Assembly: GCA_017994425.1 (NCBI GenBank)
Contig: JAGOKS010000016.1
Coordinates: 1-35,881 of the forward strand
Direction: 5' to 3'
Length of the DNA stretch: 35,881 nt
From: Bacteroidales bacterium
Lineage (GTDB): Bacteria > Bacteroidota > Bacteroidia > Bacteroidales > WCHB1-69
Under the pieces are notes generated by a model. That model was not told the DNA's origin, made no database searches, and saw nothing but the letters and a program-made list of their open reading frames with translations. This document shows, one piece after another, positions 383 through 35,881 of the stretch (positions are counted from its first letter, which is position 1; each line of letters opens with the position of its first letter). Position numbers and translations under genes: made by a program.

Positions 383-490
383 CACCTCAAAAAAAGAGTT
401 AAGCATTTATTTTAATATTAATGTTGATAAATTTGATTTTCAATTTTTTTTAATGCTGATTTGGAATGTACATTAAAAGCAATGCTATTG

Positions 491-521
491 TTTGAAAGAA
501 AATAAAAATAGTGTACTTTTG
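491..521 (+). promoter_or_regulatory. Bacteroidota-type promoter for hydF
   Basis: TTTG at 491-494 is followed by 19 bases and TACTTTTG at 514-521. This matches the Bacteroidota sigma-ABfr consensus TTTG-N19-21-TAnnTTTG. The hydF start codon lies 21 bases downstream, so the 5' leader is short. Confidence 0.65.
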
Positions 522-542
522 TATCATCAATAAAAAATAAGC

Positions 543-1724: not shown

Positions 1725-1729
1725 CCACT

Positions 1730-2512: not shown

Positions 2513-2582
2513 TTTTTTTTTTGCATGCAACGTTTTTGCTATTGAAAACGTCTTAACGATATAGTTTATATCATAAAAAAAA

Positions 2583-2609
2583 TTGCAAACAATCAAATAT
2601 ATAAATTTG
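2583..2609 (+). promoter_or_regulatory. Possible promoter for the PKD-protein gene
   Basis: TTG at 2583-2585 and TAAATTTG at 2602-2609, separated by 16 bases, resemble the Bacteroidota -33/-7 boxes with a slightly short spacer. The boxes lie 32 bases before the ATG at 2641. Confidence 0.4.
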
Positions 2610-2640
2610 TAGATAAAACTAATAAGGTAAGAGAATAAAA

Positions 2641-8838: not shown

Positions 8839-8869
8839 TAAATTTTATTCAATTTAAATACTTATTTTA

Positions 8870-10261
8870 ATGGTTTATATAAAAAGCATTATATTGACTT
8901 TGTTTTTATTGCTTTGTTTGCATATGAGTAATGCGCAAATCGAAAAATTATGTGGCTTATGGATGGATACATTAAAAGTTAATAATGATGTCATGCTTCG
9001 TTTAGTTTTTTCAATCGAAAAACAAAATGATACAGTTGTTATATTTGCTGATAGTCCTGATCAGTATGTTAAGAATATTCCTATTACAAATTATAGTTTT
9101 TCAGATGACACACTTATATTAACGATACATTCATTAGGAGCTAGTTTTAAAGGTGTTTACGACCAAGTTAAGCATGTAATTGTAGGTACCTTTAAACAAA
9201 GTAGTATGAAATTTCCAATACAGTTAGAACGTATTCCTGAACGTATAGTTTGGAATCGACCACAAACTCCTAAAAAACCATATCCTTATACAACAGAAGA
9301 TATTGATTTCTTAAGCGCAGATAAATCCACTTTACTTTCAGGAACTTTATGCCTGCCCCAGGGGGAAGGTCCATTTCCATTAGTAATTTTGATTAGCGGC
9401 AGTGGTTGGCAGGATAGGGATGAAAGTATTTTTGGGCATAAGCCATTTTTAGTAATTGCTGATTATCTTGCTTGTAATGGTGTTGCTTCTTTTCGATACG
9501 ATGATCGTAAAATGGATAGATATTTGGTATCTACTACTATGGATTTATCTAAAGATACAGAAGGAGCGTGGAAATATTTTTCAAAAGACCAACGTTTTAA
9601 TAAAATCGGTTTGATGGGACATAGTGAAGGAGGAATCATTGCGCTTATGCTGGCATCAAGAAATAAAAAAATAGATTTTTTGATTTCATTAGCCGGTTTA
9701 GTACAAGAAGCTCCTGATGTTTTGTTATATCAAATTAACGTATGGTGTAATACAATGAAATTTTCCGAAGAAGAAAATCAGGTCTGTCAGACAATGAATA
9801 GAGATATCTTTACATTAATACAAACAGAAAAAAAAACAGATAAATTATCTGTAAAGTTAGATGAAATGTATACCTCTTTTTCACAAATTTATACATCGGA
9901 TATCTTAACACGCATCGGTTTTTCTCCCAATGAATTTATGGCTAAAAAAATGCAATTAACAAACCCTTGGTATTTGTACTTTATTCGTATGAAACCTAAG
10001 AAATATGCTGTAAAGGTGAGATGCCCAGTTTTAGCTTTAAATGGCAACAAAGACATGCAAGTTCCTTTTGAAAATATACGATTATTAGAAAAATATCTAA
10101 TTCCGAATCCTTCTTCGGAATTTTATGTGATGGATGGATTGAATCATCTCTTCCAGGTTGCAAATAGCGGATTGGTAGAGGAGTACGGTAAAATTGAAGA
10201 AACAATTTCAGAGGAAGTTTTGCATAAAATGGTATTGTTTATAAAAAAAATTATAAAATAA
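8870..10261 (+). CDS. Exported alpha/beta hydrolase (serine aminopeptidase S33-like)
   Basis: A 463-residue protein with a Sec signal peptide (residues 1-23, ending SNAQ). Residues about 24-125 form a beta-rich N-terminal domain. From about residue 140 there is an alpha/beta hydrolase fold with LSGTLCLP, then ILISGSGWQDRDE (oxyanion region) and the nucleophile elbow GHSEGG. The apparent triad is Ser252, Asp395 (in NGNKDMQVP) and His426 (in GLNHLFQ). The family includes esterases and peptidases; the substrate is unknown. The start lies 31 bases after ackA, so it may be cotranscribed. Location is probably periplasmic, since no lipobox or type IX C-terminal domain is visible. Confidence 0.82.
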   Translation: MVYIKSIILTLFLLLCLHMSNAQIEKLCGLWMDTLKVNNDVMLRLVFSIEKQNDTVVIFADSPDQYVKNIPITNYSFSDDTLILTIHSLGASFKGVYDQVKHVIVGTFKQSSMKFPIQLERIPERIVWNRPQTPKKPYPYTTEDIDFLSADKSTLLSGTLCLPQGEGPFPLVILISGSGWQDRDESIFGHKPFLVIADYLACNGVASFRYDDRKMDRYLVSTTMDLSKDTEGAWKYFSKDQRFNKIGLMGHSEGGIIALMLASRNKKIDFLISLAGLVQEAPDVLLYQINVWCNTMKFSEEENQVCQTMNRDIFTLIQTEKKTDKLSVKLDEMYTSFSQIYTSDILTRIGFSPNEFMAKKMQLTNPWYLYFIRMKPKKYAVKVRCPVLALNGNKDMQVPFENIRLLEKYLIPNPSSEFYVMDGLNHLFQVANSGLVEEYGKIEETISEEVLHKMVLFIKKIIK

Positions 10262-10360
10262 TTTTGTTTAAAACTCAAATAAAGTCTTTTCAAGAAATAA
10301 TTTTATAATTTTGTAAAAATTTAAAATTAATTAAAAAAATAATATTAATAAATTAAAGAT

Positions 10361-11554
10361 ATGTTAAAGAGAACAATAGTGGCAATGCCTGGTGATGGAA
10401 TCGGAAAAATAGTATTGGAACAATGCATACGGTTACTGAATGCAGCAGGTTTTGATGCAAATTACGTACATGCGGATATAGGTTGGGATTTTTGGTGTAA
10501 AGAGGGTAATCCACTCCCTGATAGAACTATTGAATTATTAGAGAAACATAAAATAGGCTTATTTGGAGCAATTACGTCCAAACCCAAAGACAAAGCAGCA
10601 TCAGAATTAATTCCTGAGCTTCAAAATAAAGGATTGGTGTATTATAGTCCTATTGTTACAATGCGTCAACATTTCAAAATGGATATTTGCATGCGTCCCT
10701 GTAAAACTTTTAAAGGGAATCCATTGAATTTTATACGTCGTACTGCACAAGGTGATTTTTCTGAACCTATGGTCGATGCAATGATATTTCGTCAAAATAC
10801 AGAAGGTTTGTATGGCGGTATTGAATGGAGTGATGCATCGGATGAAGTTTGGAATGCTTTTATGACACATAAAAAATTTGTATCTAATTTTTCAATGCAT
10901 CCTCGCAATGAAGTATTTATTTCAACGCGGATTTTAACAAAAAAATATACGGAACGTATTTTACGTGCTGCTTTTGATTATGCAAAAGAAAGGGGATTTA
11001 AAGGAGTTACCGTATGCGAAAAACCTAATGTTATACGTGAAACTTCCGGAATGATGTTGAAATTAGCTCAAGATATTGCTAAAAAAGATTATCCGGGAAT
11101 AGCGGTTTGGGATACAAATATTGATGCTCAAATGATGTGGTTAACCAAAAATCCGGAAGACTATAATGTAGTCGTAGCCAGCAATATGTTTGGGGATATC
11201 TTATCCGACGGTTTTGCCGGTTTGGTTGGAGGATTAGGTTTTGCCAGTTCAGCGCAATTTGGAGAAAATGGGGTTGCTGTTTTTGAACCTACTCATGGTT
11301 CTGCGCCTAAATATGCTGACTATACAGTATCAATTGTTAATCCTATCGCCATGTTCTTATCGGCTTGCTTAATGTTGGATTATATTGGTGAAAAAGCATT
11401 ATCTCAACGTATTGAAAAAGCTATTGCTGATGTAATTGCTGAAAGTAAAGTTAAAACATACGATATGATGAAAATGAGCGGTTCTCCGGATGTTATAAAC
11501 AAAGGAGCTGCTTCAACGATTCAAATGACTGATGCTATAATTGCAAAACTGTAA
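10361..11554 (+). CDS. Isocitrate/isopropylmalate dehydrogenase family protein (probably NAD-dependent isocitrate dehydrogenase)
   Basis: A 397-residue beta-decarboxylating dehydrogenase. Visible motifs are MPGDGIGKIV at the N-terminus, FRQNTEGLYGGIEW in the substrate loop, VCEKPNVIRETSGMM, WDTNIDAQMMWL with the metal and catalytic acids, NMFGDILSDGFAGLVGGLG, and EPTHGSAPKYA in the cofactor region. The members are isocitrate, 3-isopropylmalate, homoisocitrate and tartrate dehydrogenases. No leuA, leuC, leuD, citrate synthase or aconitase gene lies nearby to decide. The length and the NTEGLY motif favour an isocitrate dehydrogenase-like role in making 2-oxoglutarate, but this is inference. Translation probably starts at the first ATG, just before MPGDGIG. 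Confidence 0.82.
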   Translation: MLKRTIVAMPGDGIGKIVLEQCIRLLNAAGFDANYVHADIGWDFWCKEGNPLPDRTIELLEKHKIGLFGAITSKPKDKAASELIPELQNKGLVYYSPIVTMRQHFKMDICMRPCKTFKGNPLNFIRRTAQGDFSEPMVDAMIFRQNTEGLYGGIEWSDASDEVWNAFMTHKKFVSNFSMHPRNEVFISTRILTKKYTERILRAAFDYAKERGFKGVTVCEKPNVIRETSGMMLKLAQDIAKKDYPGIAVWDTNIDAQMMWLTKNPEDYNVVVASNMFGDILSDGFAGLVGGLGFASSAQFGENGVAVFEPTHGSAPKYADYTVSIVNPIAMFLSACLMLDYIGEKALSQRIEKAIADVIAESKVKTYDMMKMSGSPDVINKGAASTIQMTDAIIAKL

Positions 11555-17701: not shown

Positions 17702-19222
17702 TTATTTTCCATAATTAGGATAACCAACACGTGCCATAGCGCAACGGAATCCTATATAAGCAGTTGCTTCGTTTTCATCAAGGAATCTTCTTTGCCCTGG
17801 ACTTAACCAATACTGCATATCTTGCCAAGAACCACCTTTATAAACTTTTGCTTTGTCTTCCACTAAAGAATAAGTTCCACGAGGGTAGGCAGTTTTTCCG
17901 TACATTTCAAGATTTGCCTTTTCATTTCGACCTTGTCTTTGCCATACTTCTGTATTACCACCACCGTAGGTTGATGCCCAATCACCATCTAAAAAGTTTT
18001 TATTGTCAGCAGCCCGATAGTTTCTTCTTCTGTCATTTTTAAAATCAGAAACCGGAACCATAGGTACTTGACCGACTTTATCGCCATCATCAATTCTATC
18101 ATCAATAGTGCCATCATCTAATAATTTTGGGGTAGTATAGTAGTTTCCTCTGTATGGATTCAAATCGGTCATGTCATCAACCGATACTTGACGATACACA
18201 TCCATTACCCATTCGGCAACATTACCTGCCATATTGTACAAACCATAATCATTAGGCCAGTAATAAATGACAGGAGATGTATAATCCGCAACGTCATTCA
18301 AATTGCCGGCAACACCCATATAATCACCGCGTCCTCTTTTAAAATTCGCAACCATAGAACCATAAAATTTTTTATCGTCTGTACGTGCAAAGTGTCCATT
18401 CCACGGATAAGTTCTTCTTTCTAATATTCTTTCTTGTAGAGTATTGCCTATAAGTCCCAATGCCGCAAATTCCCATTCAGCTTCAGTCGGTAGTCGGTAT
18501 CTCGGAAGAAGAATGCCATCTTCCATACGAGCATTACGTTCTTCTCCCGTAAGGATGTATTGCAGCCTACGATCACTATTTTTTTCGTAATCAGGATACA
18601 TGAGATAAGCATCTGTATTAAAATACCCTTCAGCAGTAGGTTCATTGGTTTGATCAATTAATCCTAAATCAACTAAAATTTGTTCATTAACACGGTCTGT
18701 TCTCCAAGCACAATAGTTTACTGCTTGAATCCAACTCACACCTACAACCGGATAATCTCTATATGCTGGATGTCTTAAATAATATTCAACGTATGGTTCA
18801 TTATAGGATAATTTATCACGCCAGCAAGCAGTATCCGGTAAAGCTTTTGCATATACTGATATAAAATCAACAGGAACAAAAACACGATATAACCAGTGTA
18901 AATATTCTAAATATGCTAAGTTGCTTACTTCAGCTTCATCCATAAAAAAAGATGAAACGGTAACTGTACGAGGATAATTATCCCAATCTTTCATCACATC
19001 TTCTTCAGTTCTTCCCATTGTAAAGCGACCACCTTCAATGAAGACAAGTCCGGGACCTGTAATTTGTTCCTGATAAGGAGCGACTTCGAATCCTCCATTT
19101 TCAGGATTGTTATATTCCCATCCTGTTGTAGTAGAGTATTCTCTTTTACAAGAGTTGAAGAATATAAAGCATAAGCTTATGCTAACTAAAACTAATAAGT
19201 TTAAAATTTTATTTGTATTCAT
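17702..19222 (-). CDS. gldJ: GldJ-like gliding/type IX secretion lipoprotein, FGE-sulfatase fold
   Basis: A 506-residue lipoprotein. The signal peptide ends in the lipobox FFNSC with lipidated Cys25. GldJ and its paralogue GldK/PorK belong to the outer-membrane ring and gliding machinery of the type IX secretion system and share a formylglycine-generating-enzyme-like domain. That domain runs from about residue 58 (FIEGGRFTMGRT) through MDEAEVSNLAYLEYL, PVVGVSWIQAVNYC, RLPTEAEWEFAALG and YNMAGNVAEWVMDVY to VYKGGSWQDM and FRCAMARVGYP. The early TGWEYNNPENGGFEVAPYQ region, with EQITGPGLVFIEGG, favours GldJ over PorK. Absence of the PorL/PorM/PorN genes downstream supports this. PorP/SprF lies 29 bases upstream in the same transcript. 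The active-site cysteines of true FGE enzymes are not conserved, so a structural role is expected. Confidence 0.85.
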   Translation of the reverse strand: MNTNKILNLLVLVSISLCFIFFNSCKREYSTTTGWEYNNPENGGFEVAPYQEQITGPGLVFIEGGRFTMGRTEEDVMKDWDNYPRTVTVSSFFMDEAEVSNLAYLEYLHWLYRVFVPVDFISVYAKALPDTACWRDKLSYNEPYVEYYLRHPAYRDYPVVGVSWIQAVNYCAWRTDRVNEQILVDLGLIDQTNEPTAEGYFNTDAYLMYPDYEKNSDRRLQYILTGEERNARMEDGILLPRYRLPTEAEWEFAALGLIGNTLQERILERRTYPWNGHFARTDDKKFYGSMVANFKRGRGDYMGVAGNLNDVADYTSPVIYYWPNDYGLYNMAGNVAEWVMDVYRQVSVDDMTDLNPYRGNYYTTPKLLDDGTIDDRIDDGDKVGQVPMVPVSDFKNDRRRNYRAADNKNFLDGDWASTYGGGNTEVWQRQGRNEKANLEMYGKTAYPRGTYSLVEDKAKVYKGGSWQDMQYWLSPGQRRFLDENEATAYIGFRCAMARVGYPNYGK

Positions 19223-20699: not shown

Positions 20700-23600
20700 A
20701 TGATTAAAAAAGTTTCGGTTTTTATATTTCTTATATTTAACTTTTTTTTAATTAATTGTCAAACTGTTTTTATATCAGATACCTTAGAATGGCGAAATCC
20801 GGTTACTGAAAAAATTACAGATGATCAAGTGTTTTCGTATTTATATTTTGAAGGAGCAGAGCTTCAAAAAATAGATGAGTCTATCCTCCCAATGTATGTT
20901 AAATATTTTCCCATCACAGACATTTACTTCATGCCAGAATTGACGATTTCTTCTTCTAAGACTATTCCCATGACAAAGAATGAACTAGGTTTTGTGGATT
21001 ATAATCTTATCAAAGAAGAATTTGAGATACAAACAGATATTGTACGAACTAAAAAAAAGGCATATTTGCAAATTAAATTTTCCCCTTTTAAGAAAAATAT
21101 TACCGGCTATGAAAAATTAGTGTCTTTTACAATTCAAGTTAAATGGAATCCTTTAAAAGAAAGTAAAATTCATAAAGCTAAAACCTATGCTGCCACCTCC
21201 ATATTATCTAGCGGAAATTTTTACAAGATTGCCATATCAAAGACAGGTATTCATAAAATTACTTATGCCGATTTTGAAAGTCTAGGAATAAGTATTGATA
21301 ATTTAAAAATAAATGATATAGCTTTATTTGGCAATGGAGGAAAAATGCTTCCTGAAAATACGCTTGATTTTACATTTGATGATCTTAACGAAGTTCCACT
21401 TTTTATTGTAGATACCGATAAAGATGGAATTTTTGATGCAGATGATTATGTGCTTTTTTATGGCATAGGTGTAGTAGCATGGGAACCGGCTTCTCCTTTG
21501 TTTACTCACAATCTTAATATCTACTCTGATTTTGCCTATTATTTTATTAATGTTGATAAAAATATTGGTTTAAAGAAAAGAGTTTCAATGATATCGGAAT
21601 CAACTATGCCCAAGACACATGATGTGTCTTCCTTTAATTTTTACAATGTGTATGAAAAAGATGCTATTAGTCCGAACGAATTAAGTAGAATATGGTTCAG
21701 TGAAGTGTATGATGCAGTAACAACTCATAATTATTCATTCACTATGCCTGAATTAGTGAACGGAGAAAAAGCCATACTACGATTTTCTGTAGCTGCAAAA
21801 TCACCTTCTGGCTATTCTCGTTTTACAGCTACTGTCAATAAGGACAATACTTATACAATAAACATAGCTCCTCATGGCGAAGGTTTGCAACACACCAGCA
21901 CATATTCTTATAACCAGACAGGTAATATTGTAAATATTGATATGACCTATACAAAACCAACGAATAATGCAGTTGGATGGTTAGACTACATTGAAATTCA
22001 AGGAATATGTAAATTGCAAGCTTTTGAGAATCAAATGGCATTTCGTAATACTGCATTTGTTGGTACAGGTAATGTATGTGAATATGTTTTTGACACCAAG
22101 GGAAATAATGTAAGCATTTGGGAGGTTACAGACCCTCATGACATTAATAAAATAAATGCCAGATTAAGTGGAAATATCTTACGTTTTAAGTTGACTGCAG
22201 ATACGTTACGGGAATTTATTGCTTTTTACGGGTCTAATTTTTATTCGGTAACACCTATTGGAAAAATCGCGAATCAAAATTTACATAGCTATACAACGGC
22301 AGATTTTGTAATTGTTACTCATCCTGATTTTGTTGATTATGCAAATCAATTGGCTAATTTTAGAAAAACAAACGATGGAATGAAATCCATGGTGGTTACA
22401 ACTACACAGATTTACAATGAATTTAGTAGTGGAGCACAAGACTTGGCAGCAATCCGTAATTTTTTAAAAATGCTCTATGACAGAAATACAGTAAATTATC
22501 CAAAAAATATATTGTTGTTTGGGAAAACTTCCTATGATTTTAGAAATATAACAGGCTTAAATAGTAATTTTATTCCTAATTATCAAGGGAAAGAACCTTT
22601 TCGAAAAGATGATTGTTTATCTACGGATGATTTCTTAGTTAAATTAGATGATGGAGAAGGTTATAATAATATGGGATCTATGGATATGGGCTTAGGTAGA
22701 TTTACGGTTAGCACGAAAAGTCAGGCTCAAATAGTCGTAAAAAAGTCTATGGATTATGCAAGCAAAAAAAACTTGGTTTCCGCAACCACAAATTCGGTTT
22801 CCAATCTTGCGGATTGGAGAAATACAATTACCATTTGTGCAGATGATGACGCGGATCAAGATCATTTTGGAAATGCAGAATCAATAGCTAATTTTGTGTT
22901 TAATACTTTTCCGGTTATGAATGTAGATAAAATATATTTAGATGCTTTTAAAAAAATCTCAACTTCTCAGGGACAGCGTTATCCTGATGCTACTAATGCT
23001 ATGAATCAACGCATCAATAAAGGAACTCTTATTTTTACGTATATGGGACATGGCGGTGATAATGGATGGGCACATGAACGTTTTTTAAAAAGAACTGATA
23101 TCGCTTCGTGGGAAAATAAATTTAATCAAGCCTTATTTTTTGCAGGATCTTGTTCTTTCGGAGTCTATGATAAAACTAACTCACAATCACCCTCAGAAGA
23201 CATATTGTTGAAATCGAATGGGGGTGGTATAGGAGTAATTTCTGCCACCAGAAATTCATACGGTTCTACCAATGAGTTTTTTGGGAAAGTATTACATCAA
23301 TATGCTTTTGATAAAATTGGCAATACTCACCGTACTATAGGACAAATTTTTTCAGACGCAAAAAATGTATCTGGAAGTGTAAATATGTATGTATTAATGG
23401 GAGACCCTTCCTTAACGCTCGCTTATCCGATTCATGTTGTAGTTACCGATAGTATTAATGCTTTTTCAATCGCTTCAAAGACAGATACCATACAAGCATT
23501 GGAATTTGTTACTATTAAAGGTAGGGTTGCGAATGCTGCCAATCATACTATGAATGATTTTAATGGATATGTATATCCTACCATATATGATAAACCATCA

Positions 23601-24506
23601 ACGATTACTACTTTGTTAAATAATAACAACAGCGTTGTAAAGAAATTTTTATTACAAAAAAATATTTTATTTAAAGGGAAAGCTAGTGTAAAAAACGGTC
23701 TTTTTGAATTCTCTTTTTTAGTTCCTAAAGACATTAATTATGATTACGGTTTTGGGAAAATCAGTTATTATGCCTTTAACAATGTTACCGATGCCAATGG
23801 CTTTGATAGTATATTTATAGGAGGAATAAAAGATACTATCATTGCGGATGATCGGGGACCTGAGATAAAAGTATATTTGAATAATGAAAATTTTGTCAGT
23901 GGGGGAATCACGAATAAAAATCCGGTATTATATGCTCTTATAAAAGATGAAAATGGTGTCAATACCGTAGGTAACGGTATAGGACACGATATTGTAGCAT
24001 TTCTTGATGATAAAATTGATAATAGTATCATTTTAAATGATTTTTTTGAATACAATGAAAACAGCTATACTTCTGGTAAAATCATGTACTTGTTAAATGA
24101 TTTAGAACCCGGGCACCATAAACTTACGTTAAGAGCTTGGGATGTTTTGAATAATATGGGGGAAACTACCCTTGAATTTACGGTTGTAAATGATGAATCC
24201 TTACAATTAGCACATGTCCTTAACTATCCCAATCCTTTTACTACACAAACCCAATTTTTCTTTGAACATAATCAGCCTAATGCAATGCTTTATGTAAGTA
24301 TTCAGATTTTTACTGTGTCGGGAAAATTGGTTAAAACCATTGAATATACTACTTTAAGCAATGCATTACGCTGTGGACCTATTACATGGAACGGTCTTGA
24401 TGATTTTGGAGATACACTTGCTAAAGGGGTGTATATTTACAAACTTAAGGTGAAAACCGCAGATAATAAAATTGCTGAAAAAATTGAAAAACTCGTTATA
24501 CTTTAA
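20700..24506 (+). CDS. porU: Type IX secretion system sortase PorU
   Basis: PorU is the surface gingipain-like transpeptidase that cleaves the C-terminal domains of T9SS cargo and links the proteins to A-LPS or an equivalent. The 1268-residue protein has a signal peptide (residues 1-21, ending LINCQT). A beta-rich N-terminal half follows, then a peptidase C25 domain at about residues 540-910. The catalytic pair is visible: His784 in YMGHGGDNGW and Cys818 in FAGSCSFGV, 34 residues apart as in gingipains. Near the end, NYPNPFTTQTQFFFEHN, then FTVSGKLVKT, WNGLDDFGD and GVYIYKLKV form the protein's own CTD-like/FlgD-like domain. porV follows 81 bases later, the usual PorU-PorV pairing. Confidence 0.94.
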   Translation: MIKKVSVFIFLIFNFFLINCQTVFISDTLEWRNPVTEKITDDQVFSYLYFEGAELQKIDESILPMYVKYFPITDIYFMPELTISSSKTIPMTKNELGFVDYNLIKEEFEIQTDIVRTKKKAYLQIKFSPFKKNITGYEKLVSFTIQVKWNPLKESKIHKAKTYAATSILSSGNFYKIAISKTGIHKITYADFESLGISIDNLKINDIALFGNGGKMLPENTLDFTFDDLNEVPLFIVDTDKDGIFDADDYVLFYGIGVVAWEPASPLFTHNLNIYSDFAYYFINVDKNIGLKKRVSMISESTMPKTHDVSSFNFYNVYEKDAISPNELSRIWFSEVYDAVTTHNYSFTMPELVNGEKAILRFSVAAKSPSGYSRFTATVNKDNTYTINIAPHGEGLQHTSTYSYNQTGNIVNIDMTYTKPTNNAVGWLDYIEIQGICKLQAFENQMAFRNTAFVGTGNVCEYVFDTKGNNVSIWEVTDPHDINKINARLSGNILRFKLTADTLREFIAFYGSNFYSVTPIGKIANQNLHSYTTADFVIVTHPDFVDYANQLANFRKTNDGMKSMVVTTTQIYNEFSSGAQDLAAIRNFLKMLYDRNTVNYPKNILLFGKTSYDFRNITGLNSNFIPNYQGKEPFRKDDCLSTDDFLVKLDDGEGYNNMGSMDMGLGRFTVSTKSQAQIVVKKSMDYASKKNLVSATTNSVSNLADWRNTITICADDDADQDHFGNAESIANFVFNTFPVMNVDKIYLDAFKKISTSQGQRYPDATNAMNQRINKGTLIFTYMGHGGDNGWAHERFLKRTDIASWENKFNQALFFAGSCSFGVYDKTNSQSPSEDILLKSNGGGIGVISATRNSYGSTNEFFGKVLHQYAFDKIGNTHRTIGQIFSDAKNVSGSVNMYVLMGDPSLTLAYPIHVVVTDSINAFSIASKTDTIQALEFVTIKGRVANAANHTMNDFNGYVYPTIYDKPSTITTLLNNNNSVVKKFLLQKNILFKGKASVKNGLFEFSFLVPKDINYDYGFGKISYYAFNNVTDANGFDSIFIGGIKDTIIADDRGPEIKVYLNNENFVSGGITNKNPVLYALIKDENGVNTVGNGIGHDIVAFLDDKIDNSIILNDFFEYNENSYTSGKIMYLLNDLEPGHHKLTLRAWDVLNNMGETTLEFTVVNDESLQLAHVLNYPNPFTTQTQFFFEHNQPNAMLYVSIQIFTVSGKLVKTIEYTTLSNALRCGPITWNGLDDFGDTLAKGVYIYKLKVKTADNKIAEKIEKLVIL

Positions 24507-24587
24507 TTTTATTAAATACAAAGTATGTACAATAATCATTTTTAGCTTACGTTAATATGCTACAATTGAAAAGAAATACTAATAATA

Positions 24588-25853
24588 ATGTCGAATAAAT
24601 TAACAAGGATAAAATATTTGTTTATAGGATTATTGCTCCTTCGTGGTACTTTGATGTCTTATACACAATCAGGTAATGATATACTAGGTAGAGATAAAAT
24701 CAATGCGAATCCTATTACTACAGCTGTCCCATTTTTAATGATAGGACCTGATTCACATACAGGAGGCATGGGTGAAGTTGGAGTTGCTCTTTTAAACGAT
24801 TTGAATGCCCAACATTGGAATCCGGCAAAATATGTTTTTTCTCCCAATATAGGAGGTATTTCCGTTTCCTATAGCCCTTGGTTATTCGGTTTGGGATTAA
24901 ATGATATTTATTTGGCTTATTTATCCGGATATTATAAAATTACAGATATGGATGCTGTGTCTATGTCTTTACGTTTTTTTTCCATGGGAGATATGGAACT
25001 AATGGATTATGAAGGACGTAATCCATTGGGAGATAATGTAATGGTTAGCCCTCATGAATTTTCTATTGACGCTGCCTATTCCCGAAAATTCACCAAAGAA
25101 CTTTCAATGTCGGTAGCCGGACGTTTTATTTATTCCAATTTAACTAATGTCAGTGGTGTAAGTAGTACTACTGAAGGAATAAAACCCGGTTTATCAGGTG
25201 CTGCTGATATCAGTTTGTTCTACAGAAAAAACTTGAATGCCGAACGTTTGTATAAAAGCATTTTATGTTTTGGGCTTAATTTCTCAAACATAGGAGCTAA
25301 AATATCTTATTCCAGTAGTTTAGAAAGAGATTTTTTGCCAGCTAATTTTCGAATAGGTACTGCATATACAATGTATATTGACAAATACAATAGTTTGACT
25401 TTTGCATTGGATTTTAATAAACTATTAGTACCCACACCACCTAAATATGCAACGGATAGTTTTGGTGTTATTATAAGAGATCCAGAAGGAAATGCTATTA
25501 TTGAAGCGGGTAAAGATCCGTATAAATCATCTGTTGTAGGCGCTGTTTTTACTTCATGGTATGATGCTCCCGATGGTTTTAAAGAAGAAATGAGTGAGTT
25601 TATCATCAATGTTGGGTTGGAATATGCCTATAATGACTTGCTTTATATTCGGGCAGGATATTTTAATGAAGCTCAAACAAAGGGTGATCGTAAATATTTA
25701 ACCGCAGGTGTTGGTATTAAATACAGTATTTTTGCTTTGGATGCTTCCTATATTATTCCCGTAAATCAACGGAATCATGCATTGGAAAACACGTTGCGAT
25801 TTACCTTGTCCTTTGATATAGGTGCAATGGGTTTAGCAAAAGAATCACTTTAA
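24588..25853 (+). CDS. porV: Type IX secretion outer-membrane protein PorV (LptO)
   Basis: PorV is an outer-membrane barrel that collects cargo from the T9SS translocon and delivers it to PorU. The 421-residue protein has a hydrophobic signal segment (about residues 8-27). The conserved PorV start follows: NPITTAVPFLMIGPDSHTGG, then MGEVGVALLNDLNAQHWNPA. Repeated amphipathic strands make up the rest, with aromatic-rich segments such as YAYNDLLYIRAGYF. It lies directly downstream of porU and five bases upstream of ispF, so the three may share a transcript. Confidence 0.94.
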   Translation: MSNKLTRIKYLFIGLLLLRGTLMSYTQSGNDILGRDKINANPITTAVPFLMIGPDSHTGGMGEVGVALLNDLNAQHWNPAKYVFSPNIGGISVSYSPWLFGLGLNDIYLAYLSGYYKITDMDAVSMSLRFFSMGDMELMDYEGRNPLGDNVMVSPHEFSIDAAYSRKFTKELSMSVAGRFIYSNLTNVSGVSSTTEGIKPGLSGAADISLFYRKNLNAERLYKSILCFGLNFSNIGAKISYSSSLERDFLPANFRIGTAYTMYIDKYNSLTFALDFNKLLVPTPPKYATDSFGVIIRDPEGNAIIEAGKDPYKSSVVGAVFTSWYDAPDGFKEEMSEFIINVGLEYAYNDLLYIRAGYFNEAQTKGDRKYLTAGVGIKYSIFALDASYIIPVNQRNHALENTLRFTLSFDIGAMGLAKESL

Positions 25854-31043: not shown

Positions 31044-32447
31044 ATGAAAAGATTTGTAGGCTATTTGTTTCTGTTTTCAGCTATTGCATTTACATCATGT
31101 AATAAATTAAATATTTATGACAAAAAAGATGCGAAATTAAAATTTTCGTCTTCGATCATTACTTTCGATACAATTTTTACAAGCGTAAGCTCTATTACCA
31201 AACGATTGGTAGTGTATAATCCGTATAGCGGTGATATTAACACCGACATCTACTTATTGGGAGATAACAATTCTTATTTCAGCCTGAATATAAATGGAGT
31301 TGCGGCACGAAAGCTTACGGATGTAGAAATACCGGCAAAGGATAGTATTTTTATTTTCGTGAAAGTAATCATAAATCCTAATCAGCAAAACACTCCCATG
31401 CTGTTAACGGATACCATCCGATTTTTCACCAATGGGAATACCCAAAATGTTGAACTATTGGCTTACGGACAGGATGCGAATTTTATTGTTCCCAACAGAA
31501 GTTTGGGAAATTTAAGTTATTTCATTGTTGCCGGTGAAGGCGAAGAAGTAACATGGACAAAAGAAAAACCCTATGTTATTTACGGTTATGCCGTTGTTGA
31601 TTCGGTAGGTAAACTTAATATTGAAGCGGGTACTAAAATTTATGTACATAAAAAAGGAGGATTGTGGATTTACAAAGGAGGGTGCTTGCACGTAAATGGC
31701 ACTCAAGACGAGCCTGTTGAATTCCAAGGTGACCGTCTCGAAGACTTTTTCCAGGATGATTATGAACAATGGGACAGAATATGGATAAACGAAGGTTCTC
31801 AAGACAACATCATCAATTATGCGGTGATTAAGAATGCGTTTATCGGTATACAAGCCGAAATACTAGATAAGGATATGGGTAATAAACTCATCCTTACAAA
31901 TAGCATTATTAAAAAGTCGGCAGGCATGGGGTTCTTAGCCAAAAACTATACGGTAGAAGCGTATAACAATATCATTGCCAATTGCGGACAGCATTGCATA
32001 GCTTTGACACAAGGAGGTACCTATACGTTTATCCACAACACCATTTACAATGCCTACAGCTTGGGAACAAGGGCTACTCCTTCGGTTTTCTTCAGCAATT
32101 ATTATATCGTTAATAACGTGATGTATCTCTCCGATTTCCATTGCGATTTTATTAACAACATTGTTTGGGGTACAAATAAGAGAGAGTTTAACTGTGATTA
32201 CGATAAATCGGCACTCTTTCAAGCTAACATAAGCCATTGTGCCTTTAAATCGGATACCAGTTTCCCCACATATTTTACCTCTATGCTGCTCAATAAAGAC
32301 CCTTTGTTTGAAAAGGTTGCCGATTACGACTTTCAGTTGCAGGCAGCTTCCCCATGCAAGGGGGCCGGTAAATCAAGTACGGGTGTTTTATTCGATATAA
32401 AAGGAAATTCACGAAATGCACCTCCCTCCATAGGTGCTTATGAATAA
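31044..32447 (+). CDS. Right-handed beta-helix lipoprotein
   Basis: A 467-residue lipoprotein. The start at 31044 gives a clean signal peptide with lipobox AFTSC (lipidated Cys19); the open frame upstream lies within ddl and is not credible. Residues about 20-150 form an Ig-like domain (FDTIFTSVSSITKRLVVYN). From about 170, VDSVGKLNIEAGTKIYVHK, GTQDEPVEFQGD, NIINYAVIKNAFIG and NKLILTNSIIKKSAG form parallel beta-helix turns. The end is ASPCKGAGKSSTG then DIKGNSRNAPPSIGAYE, as in choice-of-anchor/pectate-lyase-like proteins. No lyase residues are identifiable, so the function is unknown. It starts 55 bases after ddl and overlaps aroK. Confidence 0.82.
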   Translation: MKRFVGYLFLFSAIAFTSCNKLNIYDKKDAKLKFSSSIITFDTIFTSVSSITKRLVVYNPYSGDINTDIYLLGDNNSYFSLNINGVAARKLTDVEIPAKDSIFIFVKVIINPNQQNTPMLLTDTIRFFTNGNTQNVELLAYGQDANFIVPNRSLGNLSYFIVAGEGEEVTWTKEKPYVIYGYAVVDSVGKLNIEAGTKIYVHKKGGLWIYKGGCLHVNGTQDEPVEFQGDRLEDFFQDDYEQWDRIWINEGSQDNIINYAVIKNAFIGIQAEILDKDMGNKLILTNSIIKKSAGMGFLAKNYTVEAYNNIIANCGQHCIALTQGGTYTFIHNTIYNAYSLGTRATPSVFFSNYYIVNNVMYLSDFHCDFINNIVWGTNKREFNCDYDKSALFQANISHCAFKSDTSFPTYFTSMLLNKDPLFEKVADYDFQLQAASPCKGAGKSSTGVLFDIKGNSRNAPPSIGAYE

Positions 32448-32967
32448 GAAAGACATGCGTATCTATATCCTTGGTTTTATGGGTAGCGGCAAAAGCACAT
32501 TCGGTAAACAATTGGCACATTATGCCAAGTGTCCGTTTATTGATTTGGATAAACATTTTGAGAAAACATATCATACAAGTATCCTCGATTTTTTCACACA
32601 TCATGCTGAAAGTGAGTTCAGGGAAAAGGAAGCGGCATTGCTGCGTGAAAGCGATTTTCCTGCCCAAGCGGTTATTTCATTGGGTGGAGGTACGCCTTGT
32701 TTTTACGATAATATGGATTGGCTCCTTAAAGACGGTTTGTGTGTGTATTTGAAACTTTCGCCCAAAGGCTTGCAATATCGTTTGTTGCATTCCAAAAAAC
32801 AACGTCCCTTGGTTCAAGGGAAAAGTCCGGAAGAACTGCTCACTTATATTGATACATTGTTGCAAGAAAGAGAAAAATATTACGAGCAGGCACATCTTAT
32901 TGTTCCCGGAATTATCTTGAAAAGTGCTCACAAAAGCGAAACCTTCCGCAGGATAATGAATGTGTGA
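32440..32967 (+). CDS. aroK: Shikimate kinase
   Basis: Shikimate kinase phosphorylates the 3-hydroxyl of shikimate in the aromatic amino acid pathway. It has Walker A GFMGSGKSTFG, FIDLDKHFEK with the shikimate-binding Asp, SEFREKEAALL with the binding Arg, ISLGGGTP (the GGG loop) and the lid KKQRPLVQG. Possible starts are GTG 32434, ATG 32440 and ATG 32455. The one at 32440 overlaps the preceding stop by eight bases, implying coupled translation. The ATG at 32455 (MRIYILGFMG) is closest to the usual family start. A strong terminator follows 15 bases after the stop. Confidence 0.92.
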   Translation: MNKKDMRIYILGFMGSGKSTFGKQLAHYAKCPFIDLDKHFEKTYHTSILDFFTHHAESEFREKEAALLRESDFPAQAVISLGGGTPCFYDNMDWLLKDGLCVYLKLSPKGLQYRLLHSKKQRPLVQGKSPEELLTYIDTLLQEREKYYEQAHLIVPGIILKSAHKSETFRRIMNV

Positions 32968-32981
32968 AAGTGTCTTGCTCT

Positions 32982-33016
32982 GTAAGCGGGTGATTTGAAT
33001 TCACCCGCTTACTTTT
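32982..33016 (+). terminator. Intrinsic terminator after aroK, left end of repeat unit 1
   Basis: GTAAGCGGGTGA (32982-32993) pairs perfectly with TCACCCGCTTAC (33001-33012) around a seven-base loop, followed by TTTT. The same hairpin opens each repeat unit. Confidence 0.85.
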
Positions 33017-33040
33017 CCGCAATAAAAAATATTTCACGTT

Positions 33041-33068
33041 TTGCTTATTGTAATATTTTGTATATTTG
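33041..33068 (+). promoter_or_regulatory. Promoter of target gene 1
   Basis: TTG at 33041-33043 (within TTTTG), 17 bases, then TATATTTG at 33061-33068: a good Bacteroidota -33/-7 pair. The leader to the ATG at 33122 is about 50 bases. Present unchanged in all three units. Confidence 0.65.
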
Positions 33069-33121
33069 CAAAATTAAATGTACAAAGATTTATCAAATTT
33101 ATAATTTAACAATAATCTATT

Positions 33122-34054
33122 ATGAATAAATACATTATTTCTTTATTGGTACTTATTTTCAGTTTGAATGCGGCGGCACAAACTAAGCCTACGCCGGTAA
33201 GTGAACGTATGGTTGATGGTAAACGCATGGTAATTTATAGTGATGGCACTTGGAAAGAAAAAGAATATACCAAACCCAAAATCCAATGGGTTGCTATACC
33301 CGGGGGCACATTTACCATGGGGAGCCCTTATGACCAAGCAGACAGAGAGGATATCGAAACACCCCATCAAGTAACATTGAGTGCGTTTAAAATGAGTAAG
33401 TATGAAATTACCAATGCCCAGTATGCCGCCTTTTTAAATGCCAAAAACATTGGCAGTGATGGAAAATATGAGGCAGGATCCTATCCTACAGAAGAACTAA
33501 TTTATCAAAGTGGAGGCAATTATGATTGGGGGTTGCATTATGTAGATGGACAATGGGTGCCGGTTGCGGGATATGAAAACTACCCGGTGATAAATGTTAC
33601 TTGGTATGGAGCCTCGGAATTTGCTGCCTATATGGGTTGCCGCCTGCCTACTGAGGCTGAATGGGAATATGCCTGCCGAGCGGGAACTACCACCCATTTT
33701 AATACAGGTATCTGTTTAAATACCACACAAGCCAATTATGATGGGAGTTACCCCATGGAATGGTGTAGCGAGGGAGTATATAGAGGCAAAACAATGCCGG
33801 TGGGTAGTTTTTCTCCCAATGCTTGGGGCTTGTGTGATATGCATGGAAATGTATGGGAATGGTGTAGTGATTGGTACGATGAATATCCAATCTATGCACA
33901 AACAAATCCTAAAGGTCCTGCAAGCGGGGCGTGCCGAGTTTTCCGTGGCGGTAGTTGGTACAACGATGCTCGCTATTGTCGTAGTGCCTATCGCAACCGC
34001 TACTTTCCGTTCAACTACTACAACCTTATAGGTTTTCGTGTGGTTTCTCTTTAG
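33122..34054 (+). CDS. Exported FGE-sulfatase-fold protein, probable DGR variable protein 1
   Basis: A 310-residue protein with a Sec signal peptide (residues 1-20, ending NAAAQ) and a short GKRMVIYSDGTWKEK module. A formylglycine-generating-enzyme-like (C-type lectin-like) domain runs from about residue 55: WVAIPGGTFTMGSP, KYEITNAQYAAFLNAK, CRLPTEAEWEYACRAG, LCDMHGNVWEWCSDWY and VFRGGSW. The last 35 residues are GGSW, variable, ARYCRSA, variable, RN, variable, GFRVVSL, the layout of diversity-generating retroelement target proteins such as Treponema TvpA. True FGE enzymes have two active-site Cys here; only YC remains, so it is a ligand-binding fold and not an enzyme. It has no type IX CTD or lipobox, so location (periplasm or outside) is unclear. 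Compared with its paralogue at 34499, most changes fall in the C-terminal loops and at residues 116-140. Confidence 0.88.
   Translation: MNKYIISLLVLIFSLNAAAQTKPTPVSERMVDGKRMVIYSDGTWKEKEYTKPKIQWVAIPGGTFTMGSPYDQADREDIETPHQVTLSAFKMSKYEITNAQYAAFLNAKNIGSDGKYEAGSYPTEELIYQSGGNYDWGLHYVDGQWVPVAGYENYPVINVTWYGASEFAAYMGCRLPTEAEWEYACRAGTTTHFNTGICLNTTQANYDGSYPMEWCSEGVYRGKTMPVGSFSPNAWGLCDMHGNVWEWCSDWYDEYPIYAQTNPKGPASGACRVFRGGSWYNDARYCRSAYRNRYFPFNYYNLIGFRVVSL
33923..34039 (+). other. DGR variable region (VR) of target gene 1
   Basis: In this 3' end of the gene, codons that differ from copy 2 within the GGSW-to-IGF loops all end in C or T (TAC, AAC, GAT, TAT, CGC, TTT, TTC, CTT). That is the NNY spectrum expected when AAC/AAT template codons are adenine-mutagenised. 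Framework codons (GGT AGT TGG, GCT CGC, TGT CGT AGT, GGT TTT CGT) are unchanged. Differences at 33923-33934 (S-G-A-C versus S-G-S-H) suggest the VR begins there. The template repeat is not in the window. Confidence 0.75.
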
Positions 34055-34094
34055 TTTAGGTGGAAATTTTCATCCTTCCTTTTAAGCAAAAAGA

Positions 34095-34163
34095 GCTTTG
34101 CCATAAGGGAGTGAGGCAAGGCTCGTGCGGAGCCGAGACAGACGAACGACTAATAGGCAAAGC
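34095..34163 (+). other. Structured intergenic element 1 (nested inverted repeats)
   Basis: GCTTTGCC (34095-34102) pairs with GGCAAAGC (34156-34163) as an outer 8-bp stem. Inside, GGCTC (34120-34124) pairs with GAGCC (34130-34134) around a five-base loop. It lies 41 bases after the target gene stop. It is kept in copy 2 with one change only in the inner loop. No T run follows, so it is probably not a simple terminator. Confidence 0.6.
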
Positions 34164-34192
34164 GATGAAAAAATAAAATAAAAATATCAACA

Positions 34193-34306
34193 ATGCAGAT
34201 ACGAATATTTACAATACCCATAACAGATAGTGGAGAATTACAGGGAGAAATGAATAGATTTTTAGCAAGTCAAAGTGTAAAGAGTCCTGGGTGCCGAAAC
34301 AATTAA
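34193..34306 (+). pseudogene. Truncated DGR accessory (HRDC-type) gene fragment 1
   Basis: A 37-codon ORF beginning MQIRIFTIPITDSGELQGEM, then NRFLASQSV, and ending in unrelated SPGCRNN. The start resembles, as I recall, the N-terminus of HRDC-domain accessory proteins encoded between the target gene and the reverse transcriptase in Bacteroidota DGRs. The HRDC domain itself is absent, so this looks like a breakpoint-truncated copy carried along in the tandem duplication. It could instead be a small expressed peptide. Confidence 0.5.
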
Positions 34307-34358
34307 AAATTAAAAATTAAAAATTAAGGAGAAAATAGCATGTGAATTACGCTGATAT

Positions 34359-34394
34359 AGTAAGCGGGTGATTTGAATTCACCCGCTTACTTTT
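34359..34394 (+). terminator. Terminator hairpin, left end of repeat unit 2
   Basis: GTAAGCGGGTGA (34360-34371) pairs with TCACCCGCTTAC (34379-34390), followed by TTTT. It insulates target gene 2 from transcription of unit 1. Confidence 0.85.
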
Positions 34395-34417
34395 CGGAAT
34401 AAAAAATATTTCACGTT

Positions 34418-34445
34418 TTGCTTATTGTAATATTTTGTATATTTG
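34418..34445 (+). promoter_or_regulatory. Promoter of target gene 2
   Basis: TTG at 34418-34420, 17 bases, TATATTTG at 34438-34445, identical to the unit 1 promoter, 53 bases before the ATG at 34499. Confidence 0.65.
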
Positions 34446-34498
34446 CAAAATTAAATTTACAAAGATTTATCAAATTTATAATTTAACAATAACCTATT

Positions 34499-35449
34499 AT
34501 GAATAAATACATTATTTCTTTATTAGTACTTGTTTTCAGTTTGAATGCGGCGGCACAAACTAAGCCTACGCCGGTAAGTGAACGTATGGTTGATGGTAAA
34601 CGCATGGTAATTTATAGCGATGGCACCTGGAAAGAAAAAGAATATACCAAACCCAAAATCCAATGGGTTGCTATACCCGGGGGCACATTTACCATGGGAA
34701 GCCCTTACGACCAAGCAAACAGAGAGGATGACGAAATACCCCATCAGGTAACATTGAGTGCGTTTAAAATGAGTAAGTATGAAATTACCAATGCCCAGTA
34801 TGCCGCCTTTTTGAATGCCAAAAACATAGGTAGCGATGGGAAATTTGCGGCAGGAGCATTTCCTACACAAGTTTTAATTTATGAAAGTAGTAGCGTTTAT
34901 GATTGGGGTTTGCATTATGCCGATGGACAATGGGTGCCGGTTGCGGGCTATGAAAACCACCCGGTGATAAAAGTTACTTGGTATGGAGCCTCGGAATTTG
35001 CTTCCTATATGGGTTGCCGCCTGCCTACTGAGGCTGAATGGGAATATGCCTGCCGAGCCGGAACTACCACCCATTTTAATACAGGTATTTGTTTAAATAC
35101 CACACAAGCCAATTATGCTGGGAATTACCCCATGGAATGGCGTAGCGAGGGAGTATATAGACGCAAAACAATGCCGGTGGGTAGTTTTTCTCCCAATGCT
35201 TGGGGCTTGTGTGATATGCATGGAAATGTATGGGAATGGTGTAGTGATTGGTACGGTGAATATCCAAATTATGCACAAACAAATCCTAAAGGACCTGCAT
35301 CCGGGTCGCACCGAGTGTTCCGTGGCGGTAGTTGGCACAGCCTTGCTCGCTATTGTCGTAGTGCTCGTCGCAACTACTCCTATCCGCTCAACTACTCCGA
35401 CTTCTTCGCCAGCTACGACTATATTGGTTTTCGTGTGGTTTCTCTTTAG
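34499..35449 (+). CDS. Exported FGE-sulfatase-fold protein, probable DGR variable protein 2
   Basis: A 316-residue paralogue of the protein at 33122, with the same signal peptide (NAAAQ end), the same SDGTWKEK module and the same FGE/C-type-lectin-like framework. It is six residues longer, all in the last variable loop: RNYSYPLNYSDFFASYDYIGF compared with RNRYFPFNYYNLIGF. A second cluster of replacements is at residues 116-140 (FAAGAFPTQVLIYESSSV compared with YEAGSYPTEELIYQSGGN). Substitutions elsewhere are few and mostly silent. Other loop changes include H-S-L after GGSW and SGSH for SGAC. These are the exposed loops of the fold, so the two proteins probably differ in ligand specificity. 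It has its own promoter and is preceded by a terminator. Confidence 0.88.
   Translation: MNKYIISLLVLVFSLNAAAQTKPTPVSERMVDGKRMVIYSDGTWKEKEYTKPKIQWVAIPGGTFTMGSPYDQANREDDEIPHQVTLSAFKMSKYEITNAQYAAFLNAKNIGSDGKFAAGAFPTQVLIYESSSVYDWGLHYADGQWVPVAGYENHPVIKVTWYGASEFASYMGCRLPTEAEWEYACRAGTTTHFNTGICLNTTQANYAGNYPMEWRSEGVYRRKTMPVGSFSPNAWGLCDMHGNVWEWCSDWYGEYPNYAQTNPKGPASGSHRVFRGGSWHSLARYCRSARRNYSYPLNYSDFFASYDYIGFRVVSL
35300..35434 (+). other. DGR variable region (VR) of target gene 2
   Basis: The equivalent of 33923-34039, with an 18-base in-frame insertion. Variable codons between GGSW and the final GF are again all NNC or NNT (CAC, AGC, CTT, TAT, CGT, TAC, TCC, CTC, GAC, TTC, GCC). The codon before GGTTTTCGT is ATT here and ATA in copy 1, consistent with a template adenine. 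Confidence 0.75.
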
Positions 35450-35489
35450 TTTAGGTGGAAATTTTCATCCTTCCTTTTAAGCAAAAAGA

Positions 35490-35558
35490 GCTTTGCCATA
35501 AGGGAGTGAGGCAAGGCTCGAGCGGAGCCGAGACAGACGAACGACTAATAGGCAAAGC
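35490..35558 (+). other. Structured intergenic element 2 (nested inverted repeats)
   Basis: The same 8-bp outer stem (35490-35497 with 35551-35558) and inner GGCTC/GAGCC hairpin as element 1, same total length. The single base difference falls in the inner loop. Confidence 0.6.
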
Positions 35559-35587
35559 GATGAAAAAATAAAATAAAAATATCAACA

Positions 35588-35701
35588 ATGCAGATACGAA
35601 TATTTACAATACCCATAACAGATTGTGGAGAATTACAGGGAGAAATGAATAGATTTTTAGCAAGTCAAAGTGTAAAGAGTCCTGGGTGCCGAAACAATTA
35701 A
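35588..35701 (+). pseudogene. Truncated DGR accessory (HRDC-type) gene fragment 2
   Basis: Second copy of the 37-codon ORF, differing by one residue (TDCG for TDSG). It is followed by the same (TTAAAAA)n tract and AT-rich tail, so the truncation existed before the duplication or was spread by it. Confidence 0.5.
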
Positions 35702-35754
35702 AAATTAAAAATTAAAAATTAAGGAGAAAATAGCATGTGAATTACGCTGATATA

Positions 35755-35789
35755 GTAAGCGGGTGATTTGAATTCACCCGCTTACTTTT
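35755..35789 (+). terminator. Terminator hairpin, left end of repeat unit 3
   Basis: GTAAGCGGGTGA (35755-35766) pairs with TCACCCGCTTAC (35774-35785), followed by TTTT. Confidence 0.85.
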
Positions 35790-35813
35790 CCGCAATAAAA
35801 AATATTTCACGTT

Positions 35814-35841
35814 TTGCTTATTGTAATATTTTGTATATTTG
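35814..35841 (+). promoter_or_regulatory. Promoter of a predicted third target gene
   Basis: TTG at 35814-35816, 17 bases, TATATTTG at 35834-35841, identical to the promoters of units 1 and 2. The gene it drives lies outside the window. Confidence 0.6.
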
Positions 35842-35881
35842 CAAAATTAAATGTACAAAGATTTATCAAATTTATAATTTA

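Follow-up and report, generated by a model that had tools for sequence, protein, structure and literature searches.

The TvpA diversity-generating retroelement (DGR) of T. denticola includes FGE-fold target genes and an HRDC accessory gene, with several targets per genome, and the cited portions of its published description include orphan targets, in isolates with 0 reverse transcriptase (RT) genes, 0 template repeats, and 2-6 FGE targets (PMC4891356). A second close relative, L234 (= G050:C162), is a complete FGE/HRDC-type DGR on a 3.8-kb contig, in the order of target, HRDC gene (~190 nt downstream), RT, and template. The locus described here lies at the right end of a 35,881-nt stretch of Bacteroidales DNA (the window), which belongs to a genome designated G000. 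It shares with L234 the order of target and HRDC gene, the GGSW scaffold, and variable columns that match the adenines of the L234 template, but differs in that L234 has a single target and full-length HRDC and RT genes. Unlike the seven targets of one T. denticola isolate, which are scattered according to the cited portions of that report (PMC4891356), at least two targets are adjacent in the window; each is followed by a truncated HRDC gene, and no template was identified in G000.

The left anchor of the locus is a plus-strand shikimate kinase gene (32434-32967; Pfam SKI, 4e-35). A palindromic hairpin with a run of T after it, similar to an intrinsic terminator, opens the first repeat unit (32982-33013); it is supported by its predicted fold (z = -7.3, with 0 of 200 shuffles equally stable) and by repeats at 34359 and 35754. 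The upstream region of target 1 (33014-33121, plus strand) has a 97% identical 300-nt block as its counterpart at 34391-34690 and contains TATATTTGC at 33061-33069, which we take to be a putative Bacteroidetes-type -7 motif. Target gene 1 (33122-34054, plus strand; 310 aa) contains variable region 1 (33929-34030, plus strand), bounded here by the first and last variable codons, although template-defined limits may differ. Two small plus-strand hairpins 3′ of the gene (34098-34134) occupy the expected place of DGR target hairpins and may represent them, with a non-significant fold score (z = -1.19). The sequence downstream of target 1 is 99% identical to that of a sister species over 93 nt. Next come a truncated 5′ end of an HRDC accessory gene, 37 codons in length and hereafter called a fossil (34193-34306, plus strand), and a junction filler (34307-34358) that, by comparison within the genus, carries a dispersed AATTAAAAATTAA repeat; the matches listed for this repeat, with no more than 40 candidates scored per genome, were many genus-wide sites and nothing else. 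The second unit opens with a copy of the terminator-like hairpin (34359-34391) and continues with target gene 2 (34499-35449, plus strand; 316 aa), variable region 2 (35306-35425, plus strand), and a second fossil (35588-35701, plus strand) whose peptide is 97% identical to that of the first. The beginning of a possible third unit (35755-35881) is an exact 127-nt copy of 32982-33108 and ends with the contig. Repeat-unit spacing is 1377 and 1396 nt, and at the ends of the units two 300-nt blocks align without gaps at 97% and 98% identity.

The initial annotation had proposed two adjoining genes of the FGE/C-type-lectin fold, almost the same apart from their C-terminal loop codons. Both ORFs are present and both match Pfam FGE-sulfatase (E = 4.6e-60 and 1.8e-60 for targets 1 and 2, respectively), while residues 158-307 of target 1 match the T. 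denticola TvpA structure 2y3c (E = 9.5e-19). The combination of this fold, as predicted from sequence, with a C-terminal variable region is that of a DGR variable protein, and the last variable codons reach 7 codons before the stop. The N-terminus of target 1 is signal-peptide-like, and the remainder is predicted to be an FGE/C-type-lectin-fold protein. As to near-identity, the differences do cluster C-terminally, but ~9% of the remaining residues differ as well; the two proteins are 88% identical over the query and 90.9% identical without their last 45 residues.

At the nucleotide level, targets 1 and 2 differ at 23 nt in their C-terminal 41 codons vs. 50 nt in the other 269 codons (p = 1.7e-5), and codon positions 1 and 2 account for 20 of the 23 C-terminal differences compared to 28 of the 50 elsewhere (p = 0.016). 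Most of the C-terminal differences are at NNC/NNT codons, with third positions almost fixed. When copy 1 was compared to its sister-species orthologue, 14 of 807 nt differed in the gene body and 25 of 123 in the C-terminal segment. Adenine columns were defined from the templates of 10 FGE-type relatives, in which template-variable pairs had been located by script; a column with A in at least half of the 10 templates qualified, as did 20 of 78 core columns. Left out of this panel were L081, although it has such pairs, and L238, L196, L239, and L240, whose pairs belong to other target types. L125, a near-copy of L124, stayed outside the template-finder run, and the finder detected nothing in L007, L009, L012, L017, L053, L235, L236, or L184, none of which is in the panel. 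In the 78-nt ungapped core of both window genes and the sister orthologue, 15 of 17 differing nucleotides were in adenine columns (hypergeometric p = 4e-10, with columns treated as independent) and two at non-adenine columns; the L234 template alone likewise had adenines at 15 of the 17. The earlier expectation that variable-region differences map to template adenines was thus borne out, with relatives' templates standing in for the cognate one. As a negative control, the homologues of G002 and G003 lacked the pattern: third positions took 15 of their 26 changes, and adenine columns 8 of the 16 in the core (p = 0.03). All four pairs involving a distant copy (G5c32a) were without a C-terminal excess of differences (p = 0.26-0.43); three of them fit the adenine columns more poorly (10/19, 13/21, and 10/18), and the fourth had 17/24.

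The HRDC gene occurs in the window twice, each time as its 5′ part alone and without the HRDC domain itself; the first copy has no Pfam match of its own and was recognized by its homology to DGR HRDC genes. A search of 60 genomes, G000 included, found fossil-like ORFs at E<0.01 in four other genomes, all four with a DGR-like RT on the same contig, while two matches at E = 0.5 and 0.69 were disregarded. L022, too, has a fossil homologue with a DGR-like RT on its contig. PF00570 (HRDC) was above its cut-off in 5 of 5 full-length homologues scanned. The HRDC gene is not part of every DGR, and G005, G012, G025, G046, G053, and G059, among the 60 genomes, had RT matches without a fossil match. These homologies support a tie between the repeat unit and a DGR. 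Together with the adenine columns of the relatives, the fossils strongly support the initial assignment of both genes as TvpA/FGE-type DGR targets.

The checks for the remainder of a DGR had a different outcome, as neither the RT nor the template that would complete one was found in the G000 assembly (88.5% complete, 144 contigs). The initial annotation had expected both to the right of the array, where this assembly has a gap. Neither the Pfam PF00078 model nor a DGR RT from G005 used as query detected an RT in G000. An exact N-masked pattern, which does recover both variable regions, detected no cognate template in G000. With 3 mismatches allowed, none was found in six genus genomes (G000-G005) or, with up to 3, in 104 family genomes; the patterns were built on the window's scaffold, such that templates with other scaffold codons would escape, and the mismatch searches had no positive control. 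The sole RT match in the six genus genomes, three of which are 93-97% complete, is that of G005, which adjoins an N-rich presumed template encoding YYWSSTE...VRAVRDF. Since this RT lies beside a presumed template of another type, the genus has no known FGE-type DGR core. The G005 RT was also considered as a trans-acting enzyme, and was dropped because its neighboring presumed template is YYWSSTE-type and no paired variable region was found on the contig by script. G047:C106, where an RT fragment lies close to an FGE gene, was set aside as well, the frames of this fragment resembling those of a broken group II intron RT. G057 also has RTs. In G000, contig C54 carries a YYWSST-type target, likewise without an RT. 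The scaffold pattern had 0 matches in viral contigs, and relatives in phage and plasmid collections (22 and 480 records) were all <60% identical; nothing in these comparisons points to the array having recently come from a phage or plasmid.

We consider it highly probable that the target end of a DGR of the FGE/HRDC type was duplicated in tandem to give the array, and that adenine-specific mutagenic retrohoming rewrote its variable regions. The unit would span the shikimate-kinase terminator, a promoter, a secreted-looking FGE-fold protein with its variable region, and roughly 29 codons from the start of the HRDC gene. The DGR core would formerly have been located directly downstream of the target, a duplication that broke within the HRDC gene would have produced the copies, and the variable regions would have been rewritten from a postulated template whose variable codons read AAC or AAT. 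Homology, the mutation pattern relative to the relatives' templates, and the HRDC fossils are the parts of this proposal that were observed directly. Counting against it, variable region 2 exceeds variable region 1 by six codons, and a single template would be insufficient without slippage or a second template. At the corresponding locus of the sister species (L181), shikimate kinase (8621-9154) lies upstream of a single target with other genes to its right, and neither an HRDC fossil nor a DGR core was found there.

Two readings of the present state of the locus are compatible with the DGR-target proposal. The first, which in our judgment falls just short of probable, is that the full HRDC gene, RT, and template were lost from the lineage, leaving variable regions that are frozen or drifting. 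Consistent with such a loss, no RT or template was found in G000, the HRDC copies are all truncated, the sister locus has no core, and RT- and template-free T. denticola isolates with FGE targets are on record. However, G000 is incomplete and fragmented, the array ends at an assembly break beside a missing stretch, and both target genes have open frames and clean NNC/NNT codons; the RT-less YYWSST-type target on C54 fits general loss and general assembly failure alike. The second reading, plausible but tentative, is that an intact core, in the gap to the right of the array or elsewhere, diversifies all copies. A duplication breakpoint inside the HRDC gene would place an intact gene at the right end, ~3 kb expected rightward, judging from the sister species, were not found in the G000 assembly, and the variable regions of the near-identical copies differ strongly. 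The coreless sister locus and the other-type G005 RT as the only match in the genus, with three of the six genomes 93-97% complete, argue against an active core. TGGAAYAAYAATGCTCGCAAYTGTCGTAGTGC is proposed as a search sequence for unbinned contigs of the same sample.

It is doubtful that the array is an amplifiable cassette bank in which every unit has a terminator and promoter of its own, a target, and, as a fixed 3′ tail, the hairpins and the HRDC fossil. If it were, a trans-acting or now absent core would have written a different variant into each copy, and one cell would store several binding specificities, with expansion or shuffling by inter-unit recombination.

The third cassette suggested at the edge of the window is represented by a repeat-unit start of just 127 nt, probably an assembly-graph node; identity to unit 1 extends over exactly this length and stops there on the left. 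A de Bruijn node with k = 127 would leave such a terminal repeat, and the contig end is therefore an assembly stop. A third target copy likely exists beyond it, and the cassette number may exceed 2. The terminal repeat and the single-target sister locus would also suit an assembly artefact, in which unit 2 and the contig end came from a strain mixture or graph loop and the true genome had one cassette. This seems quite unlikely, as the inter-unit junction holds HRDC fossil sequence that is not found at the sister locus, and the body of gene 2 differs from those of gene 1 (50/807 nt) and the sister gene (41/807 nt). Least likely by our estimate are ordinary paralogues shaped by diversifying selection or gene conversion without a retroelement, since the variable codons change at positions 1-2 with the third almost fixed, the changes coincide with adenines of relatives' templates, and HRDC fossils are present, even though a second variable stretch (residues ~116-133) is without third-base conservation and suggests some divergence by ordinary recombination or selection.

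Taken as a tandem duplication of DGR targets, the array may be viewed as a snapshot of targets multiplying and parting from their core, with the unit boundaries, the accessory-gene fossil as a scar, and the single-copy locus of the sister species as its informative parts. This suggests that, where assemblies are fragmented, short accessory-gene fossils could point to orphan DGR targets. Surveys requiring an RT beside the variable region would miss such targets, and one survey states, in its cited portion, that its own approach is blind to remote targets (PMC8144416).

The view that near-identical targets seldom form arrays loses ground with L035, the complete DGR of a MAG from the Bacteroidia (PDTX01000007.1), which has an RT, a template, and a paired variable region. 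Like the window, L035 has two tandem FGE genes, which are 84.9% alike when the last 45 aa are excluded and have ends resembling the template; unlike the window, its core is present, and the script paired the upstream target alone with the template. The ORF list contains no HRDC-like ORF between the L035 targets, a weak negative given that the fossil query misses L035 altogether. Thiohalocapsa PB-PSB1, as described in the cited portions of its report, also has duplicated targets and incomplete DGR loci that lost their RT or template, some of them with diversification that is most readily accounted for by a system acting in trans; its target duplications appear to be due to mobile elements, and its targets differ from those of the window in being putative conflict-system proteins with other domains (PMC10907252). 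The array is not unprecedented, as orphan FGE targets are on record for T. denticola and tandem targets occur in L035.

The window covers the entire contig (C72; 35,881 bases) of a genome (G000) that comprises 2.24 Mb in 144 contigs and is 88.5% complete. At its right end, two ORFs lie in tandem at 33122-34054 and 34499-35449 and encode proteins of 310 and 316 aa, respectively. In both proteins the Pfam FGE-sulfatase domain spans approximately residue 55 to near the end, and the N-terminus carries what we read as a signal-peptide-like stretch. Residues 158-307 of the first protein match TvpA, a variable protein of Treponema denticola (2y3c; E = 9.5e-19), and this first protein also matches solved formylglycine-generating enzymes. 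The two proteins are 88% identical overall and 90.9% identical without the last 45 residues. A palindromic, terminator-like hairpin precedes each gene (z = -7.3 for the folded first copy, of which copies 2 and 3 are repeats), with spacings of 1377 and 1396 between units. A protein search of the genome returned four matches, namely these two genes and two weak ones (34% and 29% identity), and hence no other close copy. A second variable stretch was observed at residues 116-133 of both proteins (window ~33461-33525 and 34838-34902), where paralogues in the sister species (G005) have insertions of differing length. Because its changes include third positions, it is unlike template-adenine mutagenesis and possibly arose by recombination between paralogues. 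The contig also carries type IX secretion genes at 20700-25853 and 17702-19222, including a peptidase C25 gene and PorV; an FGE-domain gene on the same contig may, by our reading, be of the GldJ/GldK kind.

The initial annotation had proposed the tandem FGE-fold genes as targets of a diversity-generating retroelement (DGR), and the pattern of variation bears this out. Differences between copies 1 and 2 fall mostly in NNC and NNT codons whose third base is kept, and the same pattern was found in the orthologue that occupies this locus in the sister species (L181; G005:C123, 9308-10243), which differs from copy 1 at 14 of 807 nt in the body and 25 of 123 nt in the C-terminal segment. Templates were sought with a script that finds repeat pairs differing at the adenines of one member. 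Pairs were recovered with the FGE scaffold in L234 and L237, with other targets in L238, L196, L239, and L240, and also in L022, L065, L081, L079, L078, L124, L035, L063, and L074; the script found no pair in L235, L236, L184, L007, L009, L012, L017, or L053. Ten FGE-type templates (all FGE ones except that of L081) were aligned ungapped with the window codons (78 nt). At 15 of the 17 columns where copy 1, copy 2, and the sister-species gene differ, at least half of these templates carry adenine, which is so for 20 of the 78 columns in all (p = 4e-10 for this consensus, columns treated as independent). The L234 template alone also covers 15 of the 17 (p = 4e-9, same treatment), and single templates cover 10 to 15. 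The two exceptions lie at third codon positions (GTT/GTG and GCC/GCT/GCA). The base composition of the three genes over the adenine columns of L234 is 27 A, 22 T, 9 G, and 8 C. In a negative control of more distant homologues (genomes G002 vs. G003), 15 of 26 differences were at third positions and the adenine columns were followed weakly (8/16; p = 0.03). Counting against the reading, four pairs with a divergent sister-species copy (G5c32a) showed no excess of differences in the C-terminal segment (p = 0.26-0.43); three of them fit the adenine columns less well (10/19, 13/21, and 10/18), the fourth at 17/24. Taken as a whole, we consider it highly probable that the variable regions were written by adenine-specific mutagenic retrohoming. 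They differ in length by six codons, for which slippage in an AAC-rich template, or a second template, would be needed.

Each unit is followed by a 37-codon ORF beginning MQIRIFTIPITDSGELQGEMNRFLASQ (34193-34306 and 35588-35701), which we read as a fossil of the 5' end of an HRDC gene. When its first 30 residues were searched against 60 genomes, own included, two own matches and four others were obtained at E < 0.01 (G050:C162, G051:C19, G024:C82, and G020:C157); two matches at E = 0.5 and 0.69 were disregarded. All four other contigs have a DGR-like reverse transcriptase (RT) match, and two have a script-found template pair (L234 and L237). The same ORF adjoins the RT in L022. The HRDC domain (PF00570) is present in all five full-length homologues, downstream of the stretch retained by the fossil. 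In L234 the target is followed by the HRDC gene, the RT, and the template, in L237 by the HRDC gene, the template, and the RT. To us the fossil appears to mark the former start of an FGE/HRDC-type DGR core, and the array was probably made by tandem duplication with its right breakpoint inside the HRDC gene. Several of the 60 genomes have a DGR-like RT match without such an ORF, which therefore marks one DGR type only. The final 127 nt of the window are identical to 32982-33108, and the identity ends one base further left. A contig that stops in an exact, left-maximal repeat of 127 nt is what a branching node would leave in de Bruijn assembly with k = 127. The third cassette reported at the edge is thus probably the start of a further unit, of which 127 nt are visible.

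The RT and template had been expected to the right of the array. No RT was found in this 88.5%-complete assembly with the Pfam model or with a DGR RT query that matched 25 of the 148 genomes searched, nor was a cognate FGE template found in 6 genomes of the genus or 104 of the family; the DGR assignment holds for the targets, and the element is incomplete here. Loss of the core from the lineage is a serious possibility, close to an even chance. In the sister species, shikimate kinase is followed by a single target, 93 nt of downstream sequence (99% identical), and two genes that we take from their sequence to be HD-like and mutL-like; that genome has no HRDC match, and the contig with this locus has no RT match. 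A dispersed repeat of the ATTATTGCGTCAATAA type, found at eight places on eight G000 contigs, directly follows the sister target (L181, ~10335-10467) and could have mediated core loss. That the core instead lies hidden in an assembly gap or elsewhere is a somewhat more tentative explanation. Of a 4401-nt sister stretch, positions 369-3378, where the HD-like gene and the greater part of mutL lie, had no match in G000 at a threshold of E = 0.001 (of 81 first-look candidates, 40 were scored), and G000 contig C75 begins inside mutL. These observations therefore point to an assembly hole right of the array, which, assuming conserved gene order, would span about 3 kb or more. A DGR-like target of another type (YYWSSTE...VRAVRAF; G000:C54:27932-28057, L264) is likewise without an RT in the assembly. 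It has 55% identity to the peptide of an N-rich, presumed YYWSSTE-type template in a DGR-like core of the sister species (G005:C92; L184, 6549-8453), which also holds a DGR-like RT and an apparent Avd-like gene cut by the contig end; no variable region paired with a template was recovered by the script from that contig.

In a study of T. denticola, FGE-sulfatase was the predicted domain of the target genes, and an HRDC accessory gene separates the template from the RT; 8 of the 17 isolates lack both RT and template yet carry 2-6 targets, viewed there as leftovers (PMC4891356). Thiohalocapsa PB-PSB1 has loci from which the RT or the template has been lost, and some of these continue to be diversified, apparently in trans (PMC10907252). 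Multiple variable regions were reported for 271 of 948 non-redundant DGRs (PMC6642488); in our own survey, near-duplicates included, 22 of 166 loci had at least two ORFs of this C-terminal pattern. The most alike pair in the survey (L146) was rejected as a case of diversification, its C-terminal codons being identical. Two further sister-species FGE genes (L183; G005:C32, 6092-9112), 69% alike without the last 45 aa, have an unrelated gene between them, and one has a membrane-like N-terminal extension in place of a signal peptide. On a viral contig (L122), two FGE-type ORFs (8262-8981 and 9956-10675; 78% alike without the last 45 aa) have C-terminal codons that differ largely at NNC/NNT codons, with no DGR RT match within the fetched stretch. 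A limited check of titles and abstract openings returned none that describes truncated HRDC genes lying between tandem targets. The array arrangement itself has close precedents. Like the window, a Bacteroidia locus (L035, 710-5820) has tandem FGE genes, two adjacent ones downstream of the template that are 84.9% alike without the last 45 aa, with one target upstream, but its DGR is complete.
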